Below are positions 530 through 63,321 of a stretch of DNA of 64,000 nt, piece by piece (within the stretch, counting starts at the first letter, position 1; each line of letters begins with the position of its first letter). The notes under the pieces were generated by a model that was not told where the DNA came from, ran no database searches, and saw only the letters and a list, made by a program, of their open reading frames with translations. The translations under genes were made by a program, and so were the position numbers. Location: positions 1-64,000 of the forward strand of contig NZ_JTLD01000034.1 of assembly GCF_000798815.1 (NCBI RefSeq), in the 5' to 3' direction. Source of the stretch: Alistipes sp. ZOR0009 (GTDB lineage: Bacteria > Bacteroidota > Bacteroidia > Bacteroidales > ZOR0009).

Positions 530-1264
530 TCACTTTGCTTTCCTAAACTCGATGGCGCCAACCCGCTTATACTCGGGGCTTGCGGTGCCGTAAAGGGATT
601 TAACGTACGCCTTTACGGTAAGCGCCACATCGACCAAGCCGGTTGTTGGCTCGTACAGCTCGGCGTTGCGAGCATCGCGGGCGCTATCGAGCGATATTTT
701 TGCTGCATTGCAGGCGTTATTTTTGGTTCTGAGATTGGTGGCCACGGTGCGTAGCGCGGTAAGCTTGAGCTCCGGCTCGTTGGGTGCGTACTCGGGGGTG
801 GCCGCTAGGAACTCCACCAGCCTGTCGAAGTTATCGACCTGGCTATCGAAGCTGCGCTGCGATACCGAAACCGTTTTAGGGGCGCTGGCGGCAGCGGTCG
901 CCTTGGAGGCTGCCTTGGAGGAGGAGCTGCGCGTACCCCTAATTTTACGAACGATGGAGGCTGCCGAGGCATCGGTGGTATCGGAGGAGGAGGAGGCGCA
1001 CAATCCGTTGTAAACGCGGGTAACGAGCCCATCCATCTCGGAGAAGGAGCTGTCGCGCTCCTCGCAGGCCTTAGCATAGGCGGGCATGGCCACGTTTACC
1101 GCATCGACGGCGGCACGGGCTGTCTTCTCCTTTAGGGAGAGCGCCGTTAGCGCTATGGAGGGATTGGTTGGATTGTACTTCTCGCCCATGCTGGTTGCAT
1201 TGGCTATTAAAGAAGAAAAGTTGTCGACGTTTTTTGCATGACCAGTCTCTGAAAAAGTTGCCAT
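530..1264 (-). CDS. Internally duplicated protein of unknown function
   Basis: A 244-residue, probably cytosolic protein with no signal peptide and no membrane segment. It consists of two copies of one helical unit: residues about 14-95 (starting VDNFSSLIANATSMG) and about 143-240 (starting VDNFDRLVEFLAATPEY). Both continue with a Y-x-P-x-x-P...LTAL motif and a second helix rich in Ala and Asn. The two halves are joined by a Ser/Thr/Ala/Lys-rich linker (residues about 96-140). The C-terminus, VKSLYGTASPEYKRVGAIEF, resembles a motif I associate with uncharacterised Bacteroidota proteins. The ATG at 1262-1264 is the natural start. It is followed by its own terminator. Nothing in the neighbours suggests a role; the heptad-repeat ORF lies on the other side of the terminator. 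Confidence 0.8.
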   Translation of the reverse strand: MATFSETGHAKNVDNFSSLIANATSMGEKYNPTNPSIALTALSLKEKTARAAVDAVNVAMPAYAKACEERDSSFSEMDGLVTRVYNGLCASSSSDTTDASAASIVRKIRGTRSSSSKAASKATAAASAPKTVSVSQRSFDSQVDNFDRLVEFLAATPEYAPNEPELKLTALRTVATNLRTKNNACNAAKISLDSARDARNAELYEPTTGLVDVALTVKAYVKSLYGTASPEYKRVGAIEFRKAK

Positions 1265-18767: not shown

Positions 18768-19190
18768 ATCACTTCTCGTTAAAATGCTGCCTACTCTCTA
18801 TGGTTTTCGGCTTCTCCATTTATTGCATATAAATAGGTCAACAGCAACAGCTGCTGCACACAATATTAAAACAACAAATAAAAAATTCCCAACAAGAAGA
18901 TTTTAGACATCAAACACAGCGGCAGTAAATCAGCGTAAAACTTAACTATTCAAGTATTTGTTTCAATGTATAGAGTATTACAATAATAGCTTATTTTTAG
19001 TTTTAACCAAAACATTTATCCACAAACTAACTATTTATGCAAAAAAACTAATAAAGACAGTATTAAAATGAAGAAACCAATGTAAACAGTTAAAATACGA
19101 GTCTCTTCCCAGCAGTTTGTTAATCAATTTAAAGAGCAATAACATCCTTGTTAGATCAACGCTAACTTTGTGAGGATTAATCGACCAAAT
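18768..19190. other. Intergenic region between divergent genes
   Basis: About 420 bp, AT-rich, between the 124-residue gene (minus) and lrgA (plus). Apart from the TAACTTTG box at 19163-19170 I see no RNA gene, repeat or convincing small ORF. Confidence 0.4.
19163..19170 (+). promoter_or_regulatory. -7 box of the lrgAB promoter
   Basis: TAACTTTG matches TAnnTTTG. No TTTG element is found at the expected distance upstream, so the promoter may need an activator. The predicted start near 19176 excludes the upstream GTG (19170) as initiation codon and leaves ATG 19191. Confidence 0.45.
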
Positions 19191-31815: not shown

Positions 31816-32388
31816 ATGAATAAGCTTCTTTTCCTGCTTACAATTATCACTCTATCATTCTCCTCGTGCACTAAAGTCGATTACGAAAAGGTAACTCCAC
31901 ATCCTTATCCCGAAATAGTTGGAACTTGGAAATTTAATCTAGCAAACTATTTTACCATTCATATAGAAGATGCCTATAAACAAGAAGAAGTCGCAATCGC
32001 AGATAAGTATGAAACACTCGCCATACGTAAACCATTAATCGATCTTATCATTACCTTTAATGATAACATGACCTGTACAGGCGTAAAAGATAACGGGAAC
32101 GAAGTATTAAGGTATAAAGGAATTTATACGATTGTAGGAAACAAATTATCCATAGTAATGAAGCTTGTAGGCAGTAATAATCAAACCGTTTACTACTCTG
32201 GCAACATAGAAATGAGATATAAAAAATTCTTCTTCTACTATTACAAGGAAACAATTCTCGACGACTACACAAAAGAAATTAAAAGTGGCTCCGAACCCCA
32301 CATAAAATCCATATTCGATTTTTCAGAAGAGGAGCTGCTAAATAAAATATCCTATTTAGAAATGCACTTAATAATGGAAAAGGTATAA
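31816..32388 (+). CDS. Small lipoprotein, lipocalin-like
   Basis: A 190-residue lipoprotein. The signal peptide (MNKLLFLLTIITLSFSSC) ends in a lipobox with Cys18. The mature part begins with IVGTWKF, the opening of lipocalin-like domains in Bacteroidota, and continues with alternating beta strands (IIVTFNDNMTCTG-like, LRYKGIYTIVGNKLSIVMKL). No function is known. Composition is somewhat AT-rich relative to the neighbours. It stands alone, with a repeat array directly downstream. Confidence 0.8.
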   Translation: MNKLLFLLTIITLSFSSCTKVDYEKVTPHPYPEIVGTWKFNLANYFTIHIEDAYKQEEVAIADKYETLAIRKPLIDLIITFNDNMTCTGVKDNGNEVLRYKGIYTIVGNKLSIVMKLVGSNNQTVYYSGNIEMRYKKFFFYYYKETILDDYTKEIKSGSEPHIKSIFDFSEEELLNKISYLEMHLIMEKV

Positions 32389-32498
32389 GCAGGGCTGTAT
32401 ACCATATTAGCCTACTCAATGTTATTTTTTGAATCCTAGGTAGCATTTATTCCTGCCACATCTTTAAGTAAATTTCGCAGGTAATCAGTTATGTGTAG

Positions 32499-32752
32499 CT
32501 GGTTACCATATTTTATCTTTTGGTTAAGAGTTTTACTCCATTGGTTACCATATTCTATACGGTGGTTAATGTTTTTACAGCATTGGTTACCGTTTTCAAG
32601 GCGCCAGTAATGGTAACCGGCTACAAAAAAATGGTAACCGCCAGCTATAAATCCATTACGATAGGAATAAAAGTAGTAACTGTCACCATTTTAAGGGTAA
32701 CTAGGCACGAAAATATAACCTGTAGGCATTAATAAATGGTAACCAGCACCAT
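32499..32752. repeat. 21-bp repeat array arranged as an inverted repeat (array 2)
   Basis: Five units of 21 bp, four beginning GGTTACC or GGTTAAT and one GGTTAAG, run in register from 32502. The strongest core is GGTTACCATATTTT. From 32606 onward the same unit appears on the opposite strand (GGTAACC, AAAATGGTAACC), again with 21-base spacing, to about 32752. The two arms meet at the palindrome GGCGCC (32600-32605), where the last forward and first reverse units share their end. A + frame is open through 11 heptads (ending at TAA 32730-32732) but lacks an ATG at its beginning; translation is doubtful. There are no spacers, so it is not CRISPR. Confidence 0.8.
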
Positions 32753-32780
32753 ATAAATAGAATGCGGAGGGCACAAAAAA

Positions 32781-32821
32781 AGAATCCTCGGTTCAGGTGC
32801 TAACTACCTGCCGAGGATTCT
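32781..32821 (-). terminator. Rho-independent terminator
   Basis: AGAATCCTCGG (32781-32791) and CCGAGGATTCT (32811-32821) form an 11-bp stem. On the minus strand it is followed by T7. It closes the gene ending at 32838. Confidence 0.9.
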
Positions 32822-32837
32822 TCAGAATACCAAACCT

Positions 32838-33560
32838 TTAATTATCTGATGACTTCCCCTTGGATTTTGCCACCTTATTTTTCATATAGATGCTAACATA
32901 CCCCACCTTACGCTCTTCGTTTCTCCAAAAAACGTACTGTCCACAGCGACGAACCTCGTCTACCACCTGCTTTAGGTAGGTATAAGCCTTATTCCTAATA
33001 TCAATATTGGCATTGGTTCCCCTACGCGAACCGTTTAGGCGTGCCAACACCCCAGCCATCTCAGCCGAAAGCGTACCTGCCTCATCAAAAAGCGCCATAT
33101 CAACACCAATTGCAATAAGAGGAACTGAATAGGTTTTACCCAACGCACTCAAATCGCTTAAATCCTGTATCATATCAACATGACCTGTACCTTCGGCAAT
33201 AGCCTGCACCTTTACAAGCACCTCGGGGATGTTGCGGAAGGCATACATACAATCATGAACTAGATCATCTCGTAATCCATAAGCATAGGGCGAGCGTTCC
33301 TTCCATTCCGTCTTAGCCTCATCGCTACTTTGCAACAATTCCGACTGAACGTACCGTAAAGCACCAGCTCTTTGAGGAATACAGGTTACAAATTCCCAGC
33401 TTAAACCCGCCTTAAGTAAGGCTTGCTTATCCTTTTGGCACCAGAGGTAAAGATCTTCGGCCTCCTGAATAAAGTAACGAACAGGGATGTTTGGAATGGC
33501 AGCATCTTCAATGCTCATTATCGCTGCTGCACAATCTTCATAGTCTTTTTTATTGTCCAT
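32838..33560 (-). CDS. Conserved-looking protein of unknown function
   Basis: A 240-residue soluble, helical protein starting at the ATG 33558-33560 (MDNKKDYEDC). A TTG two codons upstream is also possible. It has conserved-looking segments AEDLYLWCQKDKQALLKAG, RYVQSELLQ and RLNGSRRGTNANIDIRNKAYTYLKQVVDEVRRCGQYVFW, the last strongly basic. I recognise the pattern from uncharacterised Bacteroidota proteins but no function is known. It ends with a Lys/Ser-rich tail and its own terminator. Confidence 0.75.
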   Translation of the reverse strand: MDNKKDYEDCAAAIMSIEDAAIPNIPVRYFIQEAEDLYLWCQKDKQALLKAGLSWEFVTCIPQRAGALRYVQSELLQSSDEAKTEWKERSPYAYGLRDDLVHDCMYAFRNIPEVLVKVQAIAEGTGHVDMIQDLSDLSALGKTYSVPLIAIGVDMALFDEAGTLSAEMAGVLARLNGSRRGTNANIDIRNKAYTYLKQVVDEVRRCGQYVFWRNEERKVGYVSIYMKNKVAKSKGKSSDN

Positions 33561-33776
33561 AGACAACTATTTTTTGATGTTAATAAAAAACTACAGCACA
33601 TCGAGGCGGCTTAAGAAGTAGCAACCTCACCCTTCTCCGTGTATAAATTTACAAAATTTTTAATTTCCAAATAAATTTTGATATTTTTTTCTTCCTAAAA
33701 AAAATAAAGGTGCGCTGCAATCGCTGCAGCCCACCCTCCCCTTAATTAATTGTCTACTGACAGTGTAGACACTTTC

Positions 33777-45653: not shown

Positions 45654-45683
45654 TTTGGAACTTATAAAATTATTGTACTTTTG
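45654..45683 (+). promoter_or_regulatory. Promoter of the SRP RNA gene
   Basis: TTTG at 45654-45657 and TACTTTTG at 45676-45683 with an 18-base spacer, just upstream of the RNA whose first base is about 45689. This RNA gives an internal calibration: the transcript starts six bases after the -7 box. Confidence 0.75.
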
Positions 45684-45688
45684 TGCCC

Positions 45689-45785
45689 GGGTAAGTCTTA
45701 CACGACCAGCTCCTGCTGAACTCCCCCAGGACCGGAAGGTAGCAAGGGTAGGTGGTTGTAGCGGTGCGATGTAAGTAGCTTACCC
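45689..45785 (+). ncRNA. ffs: Signal recognition particle RNA (4.5S type)
   Basis: A 97-nt small SRP RNA. GGGTAAGTCTTACACGACC at the start pairs with the GTAAGTAGCTTACCC end. The apical part carries the signature CAGGACCGGAAGGTAGCAAG, with the GGAA tetraloop and the asymmetric loop that bind Ffh. It is followed by TTTTTT as terminator. With Ffh it targets nascent membrane and exported proteins to FtsY. Confidence 0.96.
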
Positions 45786-45836
45786 TTTTTTGCGTCTATA
45801 CCTCAAATAAAAAAGGGAAACAGATAGTAATCAAAA

Positions 45837-50344: not shown

Positions 50345-50352
50345 TATATTTG
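50345..50352 (+). promoter_or_regulatory. -7 box of the btuB-btuG transcript
   Basis: TATATTTG matches TAnnTTTG; the transcript would start near 50358, the first bases of the riboswitch. Confidence 0.55.
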
Positions 50353-50357
50353 CGCCA

Positions 50358-50528
50358 GTTTTGGTCTCCGCCTCAAACGGAGTGAAAAGGGAATCGGGTG
50401 TAAATCCCGAGCAGTTACCGCTGCTGTAAGTTCTATCCAAACCTTTTGCAACCATCCAGGCCACTGTCATTTCTTGATGATGGGAAGGCGAGCAAAAGGG
50501 GAACAAGCCAGAAGACCTGCCAGAATGC
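50358..50528 (+). promoter_or_regulatory. Cobalamin (AdoCbl) riboswitch of btuB
   Basis: The conserved landmarks occur in order: AAAAGGGAATCGGGTGTAAATCCC, GCAGTTACCGCTGCTGTAAG (the B12-box helix region), GCCACTGTC, TGATGATGGGAAGG and the 3' AAGCCAGAAGACCTGCC. It precedes the btuB start by about 125 bases and is expected to block expression when adenosylcobalamin is abundant. Confidence 0.95.
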
Positions 50529-50651
50529 AAACATTTATAGCTTTCGGATAAAAGGCTTGATGTAATATCCTCAAAAATATTACTGCTCTCTCTTTATTTC
50601 CGCTGGCTTATAAATGGTTGAATCGCTAACGATTTTAATCATTTGTAAAGC

Positions 50652-55641: not shown

Positions 55642-55977
55642 GCTACCATATTTTGCTTTTTGATTTTGGTGCTTTCCTTCCTGATGCTCATGCAATAAAA
55701 TCAAGCTGCAATATTTTATAAGTTGATAGCTGTGTTTTACAATATAATGGGCATATTTCGCAGTATAACTGGCATGATATGCAATATGATTGCCATGTTT
55801 TGTAATGAAATTGGCTTGCAATGCAATATGATTGCTATGTTATGCAATGAAATCGCCATGTTTTGTAAGAAGAGAGGCATGTTTTGATGCATGATTCCTA
55901 TACAATGTAAACTATTTGCCTTGCAAAGTAATGAGAACTCCATGTTTTGTCGTAAGAACTCCATGTTTTGTAATCTA
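55642..55977. repeat. 21-bp tandem repeat array, about 16 units (array 3)
   Basis: Sixteen degenerate 21-bp units in exact register. The best-preserved ones (for example at 55789, 55852, 55936 and 55957) have the core GCCATGTTTTGTAA, and the outermost one (55642) reads CTACCATATTTTGC. All run in one direction. The minus strand is open over much of it, giving heptads of the type L-[QHR]-N-M-[AP]-I-[SI] in one frame and H/Y-containing heptads in another, because 21 is divisible by three. Neither frame has a recognisable start or homology, so I treat it as a repeat and not as a gene. No spacers are present. Confidence 0.8.
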
Positions 55978-56200
55978 ATTTCTCTTTTTTATCAGCAAAC
56001 TTCAATAAAACATCAACGTATACCGCTGTTTTAATGCATCTTAACCCCAATATAAATACAAAGAATTTGTATTGCTTTGTATTTTAGTGTTTTTTAGCTT
56101 GTAAATATTTTGATAAACCTTTTAAAGACTTGAGTTTTTAACAAAATCGCCATAATTTGCCTTAAGGTAACAGCCAAAATAACTATAAATTGATAGTAAA

Positions 56201-62737: not shown

Positions 62738-62778
62738 TTGTTTTAAACTTTTAATCCCGAAAGTTGATTTCTGGTTTG

Positions 62779-62932
62779 TTTGGCAGGTCTTCTGGCTCGT
62801 TCCTCTTCTAGAACCTTCCCATCATCAGATGACAGTGGTAAATATCTAAAAGCCGCTACTAGAACTTACAGCTGCGGGTACAGCTCCGGAGTTTAACCGG
62901 ATTCCCTCTAAACCCAACTGGGTTTGCCAAGC
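62779..62932 (-). promoter_or_regulatory. Cobalamin (AdoCbl) riboswitch of btuFCD
   Basis: Read on the minus strand: GAGGGAATCCGGTTAAACTC, GCTGTACCCGCAGCTGTAAG, CCACTGTCATCTGATGATGG, GGAAGG and the 3' GAGCCAGAAGACCTGCCA occur in the standard order. TTGGCA near the 5' end pairs with TGCCAA at the 3' end as P1. It lies 42 bases upstream of btuF. Confidence 0.95.
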
Positions 62933-62937
62933 TGGTG

Positions 62938-62945
62938 CAAAGGTA
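62938..62945 (-). promoter_or_regulatory. -7 box of the btuFCD transcript
   Basis: Minus-strand TACCTTTG matches TAnnTTTG, six bases upstream of the first base of the riboswitch (62932), the same distance as in the SRP RNA and btuB promoters. Confidence 0.55.
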
Positions 62946-63321
62946 TTTAAAAATTTAGAAGTAAAGATATTTCGGCAAGCCAATCTCCAACCGAAACAAA
63001 CCTTAACAAGAGCCCAATATAGGCTAACAATAGCCCATCTAATCACCATTCATCCGCATAAGGTTTCCAACCTATAAAGCAGGCACGCCTCGGAATGCCC
63101 AATAGCATAGCCATACCCCATCTACAACAGCCGTATATGGCGATATTCTCGCCTCTATCCCTTTCTCTTCCCGTCTCAAACTGGGCCAATTTCAGCAAAA
63201 CAGAGGCAACAATGGTTCACACCCAAGCGGCTACTCGCAGTACGCCTTCTCAGCACCTTCCCAATCGAGCATAAACCACCAAACGGCCTTCCTGCATCAC
63301 CAAAACCTCTACTACGCAAAA
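62946..63321. other. Intergenic region, nothing recognised
   Basis: About 375 bp between the btuFCD promoter and the ilvE terminator. There is a short open frame on the minus strand without homology. No RNA gene or repeat was seen. Confidence 0.4.

Follow-up and report, generated by a model that had tools for sequence, protein, structure and literature searches.

Between two convergent genes of Alistipes sp. ZOR0009 lies a tandem array of 21-nt units that reverses its orientation in its course; the question it raises is whether such a fold-back is a hairpin, a by-product of repeat copying, a remnant of a mobile element, a coding stretch or a set of oriented sites laid out on the DNA helix. 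The locus was analyzed within a stretch of 64,000 nucleotides (contig NZ_JTLD01000034.1, positions 1 to 64,000; referred to as the window) and was compared with related loci of the genus and the class.

Architecture of the array in the window

The whole array extends from 32480 to 32765 (no strand assigned; sequence read directly, repeat search, profile scan and mirror-center test). Its forward arm (32500-32604, plus strand; sequence and TRF) consists of five 21-nt units of the form TGGTTA..., with GGTTA cores read directly at 32501, 32522, 32543, 32564 and 32585. The reverse arm (32606-32745, minus strand; sequence, repeat search and profile scan) comprises about seven 21-nt units, some of them degenerate, and its GGTAACC-type cores follow one another at a step of 21 nt at 32612, 32633, 32654, 32675, 32696, 32717 and 32738 (direct reading; those at 32654 and 32675 are the degenerate ones). 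TRF reported the forward arm alone in the window (period 21/42, 32500-32591), the repeat search recovered both arms together with their inverted pairs, and in the profile scan a reverse run of three units from 32609 scored 25.9 bits compared with at most −1.0 across 20 shuffles; no further forward run was present outside the template of this array (score −3.3). Cores, repeat search and profile scan thus agree with the first-pass annotation of this DNA, which had described two arms of opposite orientation that both keep the period of 21. Indeed, a single register runs across both arms: the distance from the last forward to the first reverse core amounts to 27 nt, that is 21 + 6. The sequence GGCGCC (32600-32605, read directly, no strand), which had been proposed as the center shared by the arms, does sit at the orientation switch; its own center is at 32602.5, however, one base off the mirror center of the cores at 32601.5. 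The units are arranged head to tail at 21 nt, and a CRISPR-like reading was rejected for want of spacers.

The array fills the gap between a 190-aa ORF with a lipoprotein-like start (31816-32388, plus strand; ORF list, with the lipoprotein reading taken from the N-terminus) and the convergent gene F4 (32838-33566, minus strand), which encodes a 242-aa orphan protein and has the array behind its 3' end. A stem at 32780-32822 (minus strand; repeat search, recovered again by a rule permitting long loops) carries its T-run on the minus strand and is therefore the terminator of this convergent gene. The earlier description of an array that follows a lipoprotein gene and precedes a strong terminator holds as far as the presence of the stem is concerned, but the stem belongs to F4 and is situated in the stretch that separates this gene from the array. 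In the terminator scan with the long-loop rule, the F4 terminator preceded the array in both genomes G000 and G001. F4 is acidic (pI 5.6) and restricted to the genus, being present in the three genomes of the genus and absent from all others among the 395 genomes of the class; no Pfam or NCBIfam family scored above cut-off, a profile search against PDB sequences gave no match, and the single-sequence structure model was unusable (pLDDT 36.6).

Structured RNAs were identified at other positions of the window: two cobalamin riboswitches (50345-50538 and 62765-62946), a Bacteroidales small SRP RNA (45682-45789) and a DUF805b RNA (18788-18820).

A genome-wide class of 21-nt arrays

Autocorrelation over 864 kb of the window's genome (the window and 40 further stretches; threshold 46 of 84 matches) revealed 17 arrays at lag 21 and 23 at lag 42, next to eight at lag 41, three at lag 35 and at most two at each of the other lags from 14 to 49; these counts still contain some coding and shorter-period repeats. 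The window itself harbors two more 21-nt arrays of other units, neither assigned to a strand: the first at 1-280, cut by the contig start, and the third at 55685-56038 (TRF and autocorrelation). Autocorrelation detected further arrays in the stretches scanned from two congeneric genomes. Many of the 21-nt arrays adjoin ordinary genes. This wider class is not apparent from the fold-back array by itself.

The unit sequence varies from array to array in the window's genome. Used as a DNA query, the array 32480-32765 had no other copy in its own genome beyond weak matches and, besides itself, one weak 40-nt match in 60 relatives; the 14-nt core, with one mismatch allowed, occurred at 37 sites compared with 29 in a backward control. 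With a constant period in many arrays and a unit that differs per array, the arrays conform to the constant-size, variable-sequence tandem repeats of 20-23 nt, which are presented in the sections of Subirana and Messeguer (PMC8161180) drawn on here as enigmatic, without known function and present in many bacteria. At locus L007 (G000:C29; 380-1010 and 1310-1590), a CRISPR-like array (repeat of about 36 nt) and a 21-nt array with a unit near AACCTCGCGAGAAAAACTCCT are separated by a few hundred bases.

A gene family with arrays behind it

Beside the first array of the window, a gene at 530-1264 (minus strand) encodes a basic, helical protein of 244 aa that belongs to an array-linked family, here termed F1. 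The family was detected in 38 of 395 genomes of the class (E up to 1e-10), with several copies per genome. Thirty-eight of 40 loci were used (L122 and L134 were left out, their profiles being identical to those of L121 and L133); a lag-21/42 array was located within 1.5 kb downstream of the gene in 32 of them, and on either side in 35. For comparison, recA (30 loci from 29 genomes, mostly those of the F1 loci; the F1 genomes G014, G031 and G041 are outside this set) had such an array downstream in none of 28 usable loci and upstream in three; two loci were without usable downstream and one without upstream sequence.

A larger set of named relatives, the best 80 of 449, spans Bacteroidales, Pedobacter, Flavobacteriales, Chitinophagales, Cytophagales and one Ignavibacteria bin, among others, and has Breznakibacter xylanolyticus, Pedobacter boryungensis and Pedobacter planticolens among its hosts. 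In 70 of these 80 loci an array (lags 20-22 and 41-44) was present within 1 kb downstream of the gene. Taken singly, lag 21 was found downstream in 62 of 78 and lag 42 in 67 of 78 loci of this best-80 set, all other lags in at most two; upstream, the respective figures were 4 and 3 of 78. Clustering of the best 80 at 70% protein identity resulted in 42 clusters, 34 of which included an array by the rule of the motif set (presence of an array with a length of 105 nt or more; 68 of the best 80 loci). The median distance between gene and array is 40 nt.

When these 68 arrays were aligned by their own profiles, a shared motif emerged, AaCtgCAAaTTTgaAAatacC, which keeps a fixed orientation to the gene: it contains 5.23 bits compared with 2.79-2.95 for permuted columns and 4.16-4.30 for randomised orientation, and only 4 of 68 arrays prefer the reverse direction. 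Some of the loci are related, and the 68 arrays are therefore not 68 independent cases.

The F1 protein has a median pI of 9.29 (n = 78 of the best 80 of 449 relatives). Its structure model is helical, with two parts joined by a stretch of low confidence (pLDDT 86.8; below 50 at residues 114-136), and searches of PDB and BFVD returned no structural match at E up to 0.001. A profile search against PDB sequences gave 12 weak matches (best E 0.018); no Pfam or NCBIfam family was above cut-off and no known DNA-binding fold was matched. PADLOC and PHROGs returned no match for five array-neighbor proteins, F1 and F4 among them.

Arrays also accompany DUF6261 (25 loci in 7 of 395 class genomes; L178-L202). 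They are located upstream of the gene in 11 of 25 loci, in one of these downstream as well, and are missing from the other 14; the 11 upstream arrays have 42-nt units, many of them built around long palindromes such as TTTCGTCCCGGGACGAAA. The DUF6261 protein that was tested is acidic, as is F4.

Fold-backs of the genus and the pairing of their arms

In 28 of 56 arrays of the genus a reverse run exceeded the best null score by more than 5 bits, for many of them because the array also matches itself in either orientation. Fold-backs were picked on reading the rows by two criteria, a reverse run of at least 24 bits and, outside the template, a forward run weaker than the reverse one; L083 and L084 are two hand-added entries among the 56 arrays, L041 was left out as an array of shorter period, and L111 rows belonging to a single fold-back entered the count as one. 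In the 24 of 56 rows read, at least eight clear switches were recognized (L044, L042:17081, two in L111, L100, L116, L083 and the window array). The inverted layout thus recurs elsewhere, with at least seven further fold-backs in the genus and the GGTTAC type in three species, one of its sites being non-syntenic. In G001, F4 and the GGTTAC fold-back are found together in synteny, the F4 proteins sharing 59-60% identity; in G002 the fold-back occupies a non-syntenic place without F4 beside it, and F4 as its constant partner was accordingly rejected. Across the three species, the cores at the switch are spaced by 27, 6 and 6 nt, distances that are equal modulo 21. A more distant F4 homologue of G002 (L083) likewise has a fold-back array behind the gene, with a quite different unit. 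For the G000 paralogue (L084) a fold-back that seemed convincing by eye was rejected: its diagonal of 12 compares with a shuffle maximum of 13, and its pairing of 37% with an off-register maximum of 36%.

A cruciform or long hairpin had been named as a possible consequence of the inverted arms. Such an array, transcribed or extruded, would form a long imperfect hairpin, serving for example as a regulatory or 3'-stabilizing RNA; transcription of satellites has been described for Bacillus coagulans (PMC8625621, in the part drawn on here). The region does fold well on both strands: the plus strand, in a stretch including the neighboring terminator stem, reached z −5.9 and the minus strand, without the stem, z −6.0, with none of 100 shuffles as stable in either case, and a second run without the stem gave z −5.7. 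Both strands reach similar folding energies (−87.6 and −84.3; with other limits −77.9 and −82.9). Strong folding energies are to be expected of inverted copies of similar units, whatever purpose these serve. A hairpin under selection would give the best match between each unit and its mirror partner, and no such preference was observed in the window array: the best mirror center pairs 52% of positions, but the next in-register centers pair 51, 50, 48, 48 and 47% (off-register mean 26%), so that mirror partners show no special match. The arms do form inverted pairs in the repeat search; a single ungapped mirror diagonal is only borderline and, at 18, equals the maximum of 60 shuffles (mean 10.2). 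The cruciform or hairpin reading is accordingly weak, and the sequence does not seem to be maintained for it.

The mean pairing in register exceeded that off register in seven of nine fold-backs (the exceptions being L084 and the first of L111), and only L083 strongly preferred one mirror center (57% compared with 43%), with partners complementary beyond other units and a fold of z −7.5; hairpins may consequently form in some places. So the features that are kept are the unit, its direction and the 21-nt register; the pairing partners are not kept. Among the F1 arrays, folding with z below −2 was found for 19 of 68 on the gene strand compared with 37 of 68 on the opposite strand, and only 15 of 68 stood out against unit-permuted controls. 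RNA structure as a general principle finds support neither in these arrays nor in the pairing of mirror partners at the window array. A terminator was present within 200 nt of the F1 gene in 27 of 68 loci (none in one shuffle of each), by a finder that allows large loops, such stems having been missed by a stricter version (4 of 68); in these 27 loci a median of 89% of the array lies beyond the terminator. With the arrays of G000 and G001 likewise lying beyond the F4 terminator, an RNA or cruciform function is considered improbable.

Copying, conservation and cassettes

Equally improbable appears a neutral origin, in which slippage or unequal exchange would produce drifting tandem copies whose period reflects the copying machinery and not a function. 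The variation of the unit from array to array, near-identical units within some arrays (e.g. L209) and the gaps required to align the arrays in 21 of 30 related F1 pairs (equal-length pairs, 80-98.5% identity) would fit this explanation. Slippage alone, however, leaves one and the same period in so many arrays unexplained, as it does the motif of fixed orientation and the placement behind one gene family. Moreover, the arrays of the nine gapless pairs, which fall into five locus groups and overlap in members, were more alike than 4-fold sites in eight of nine. For seven of the eight gapless pairs that had enough sequence, conservation of the 100-250 nt after the array equaled or exceeded that of the array; within the group L262/264/269/275, no part between the gene and the element end is less conserved than the array. 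The array is therefore not the sole constrained part of F1 loci. In the pair L228 and L231, the array and the 250 nt behind it are 99-100% identical and the 4-fold sites of the gene 81% identical, a pattern that suggests recombination between loci.

A very unlikely explanation regards gene and array as a transposable or cassette-borne unit, with the arrays as its ends or leftovers. It can draw on the several F1 copies per genome, on discrete blocks of similarity in L204-L206 and on close F1 relatives in which the shared sequence stops abruptly after an imperfect hairpin of the type TAAC...GTTA. Sites resembling attC, called by a rule of our own, follow the array in 16 of 62 F1 loci (score at least 26; the 62 of 68 loci with at least 250 nt left) and were absent from one shuffle of each; nine of 39 further F1 loci also contain them, a count without a control of its own. 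In Bacteroidota bins such sites occur in series 500-800 bp apart (L273, 1551-2960; L279, 5333-7405), in the manner of integron cassette arrays. A looser scan found 39 sites compared with 24 in a reversed control, for which reason the stricter counts of 16 in 62 are preferred. Against mobility stand the lack of any attC-like excess in 1.26 Mb of the window's genus (one site compared with three in the control), the lack of a recombinase family for F1 or F4 in Pfam and NCBIfam, and the rarity of an integron integrase over the NCBIfam cut-off, found in one of 395 class genomes and in none of the 38 with F1. Some relatives of F1 hence share the attC-like site with integron cassettes, though not, in the class sample, an integrase over the cut-off. 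The origin of the window array by duplication through a replication or transposition process, once suggested for it, received no support here. F1 gene and array nevertheless appear to travel together in some lineages, for which the attC-like sites are evidence, though not proof of a working integron. F1 had no match in plasmids; two IMG/VR viral contigs (L294 and L295) contain relatives of 42% and 40% identity.

That the arrays encode heptapeptide repeats is hardly credible: 21 is a multiple of three and a 70-codon frame (32520-32732, ORF list) crosses the window array, yet in the 68 F1 arrays coding is unsupported, as stop-free frames occur in 26 (38%), near the 29% of a unit-permuted control, and the codon-phase spread is below its control (0.132 compared with 0.162 ± 0.009).

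A proposed phased array of oriented sites

A constant length of 21 nt with free sequence, kept direction and register, and no pairing of mirror partners points to the DNA helix. The reading favored here, with a confidence that falls slightly short of an even chance, is that of a helically phased, non-coding DNA array of oriented sites, two turns per unit, to which a protein would bind. Units spaced by two turns of the helix (21 bp, often as 42-bp pairs) would all face the same side of the helix, and a protein bound along this face could form a patch that separates, insulates or anchors neighboring genes; the direction of the unit would matter to this putative binding protein. In the window, two blocks of sites would then point towards each other in the gap between the convergent genes. 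The natural candidate for binding the F1 arrays is the basic F1 protein. At the window array, F4 is acidic and confined to the genus, and a general nucleoid protein is therefore at least as likely a binder.

Counted for the phased array are the preference for 21 and 42 nt, the units that differ between arrays, the register maintained across the switch in seven of nine fold-backs, the arm spacings equal modulo 21, the window array without an outstanding mirror center, the placement behind F1, the oriented motif, the F1 arrays being without coding signal or special fold on the gene strand and, where a terminator was found, mostly beyond it, and the 42-nt units at DUF6261. Counted against it are F1 without a known DNA-binding fold, the acidic nature of F4 and of the DUF6261 protein tested, the G002 fold-back without F4, the hairpin-like L083, the conservation of the region behind the F1 arrays and the many arrays beside ordinary genes.

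A wider and rather doubtful proposal unites gene and array in a single genetic module of a kind not described before: its small helical protein (F1, perhaps also those of DUF6261 and F4) would read the array next to it, such modules would spread within the Bacteroidota, certain lineages having them as integron-like cassettes, and the differing units would provide for distinct DNA-protein patches along the chromosome. The fold-back in the window might then represent the version with two blocks turned towards each other.

Relation to known repeats and significance

Iterons of plasmid origins are direct repeats of about two helix turns near the gene of a small protein. The arrays treated here resemble them in being direct repeats of about two helix turns near a small-protein gene; unlike iterons, they are many per chromosome, each with another unit, and neither F1 nor F4 reached the cut-off of any Pfam or NCBIfam family. 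With integron cassettes they share, in some cases, the succession of F1 gene, array and attC-like TAAC...GTTA hairpin, such hairpins forming a series at L273 and L279; they differ in that the F1 genomes of the class sample lack an integrase over the cut-off and the window's genus lacks an attC-like excess. The TAACTGA direct repeats of Beggiatoaceae and some Bacteroidetes, as far as the part of PMC4679880 drawn on here describes them, are similarly intergenic, short and present in many sets per genome, but consist of a seven-base unit of a single sequence in contrast to the changing 21-nt units. Closest are the constant-size repeats. According to the sections of PMC8161180 considered here, they likewise have 20-23 nt, about two helix turns, a sequence of their own per array and several families per genome; they are mostly non-coding, as the F1 arrays appear to be. 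The Bacteroidota arrays go beyond what those sections describe by their partner gene family, the oriented motif, the fold-backs and the cassettes.

Constant-size bacterial repeats as such are already known, and the additions made here are the gene linkage, the orientation switch and the cassette. A protein on such repeats is one idea offered by Subirana and Messeguer (PMC8161180, same sections), to which a candidate gene family and a layout of defined orientation are now added. The F1 linkage (70 of 80 loci, best 80 of 449) and the oriented motif provide a concrete handle, with protein, DNA and named hosts for binding tests. Should fold-back arrays prove to mark boundaries between convergent genes, this would represent a new way of organizing bacterial chromosomes.
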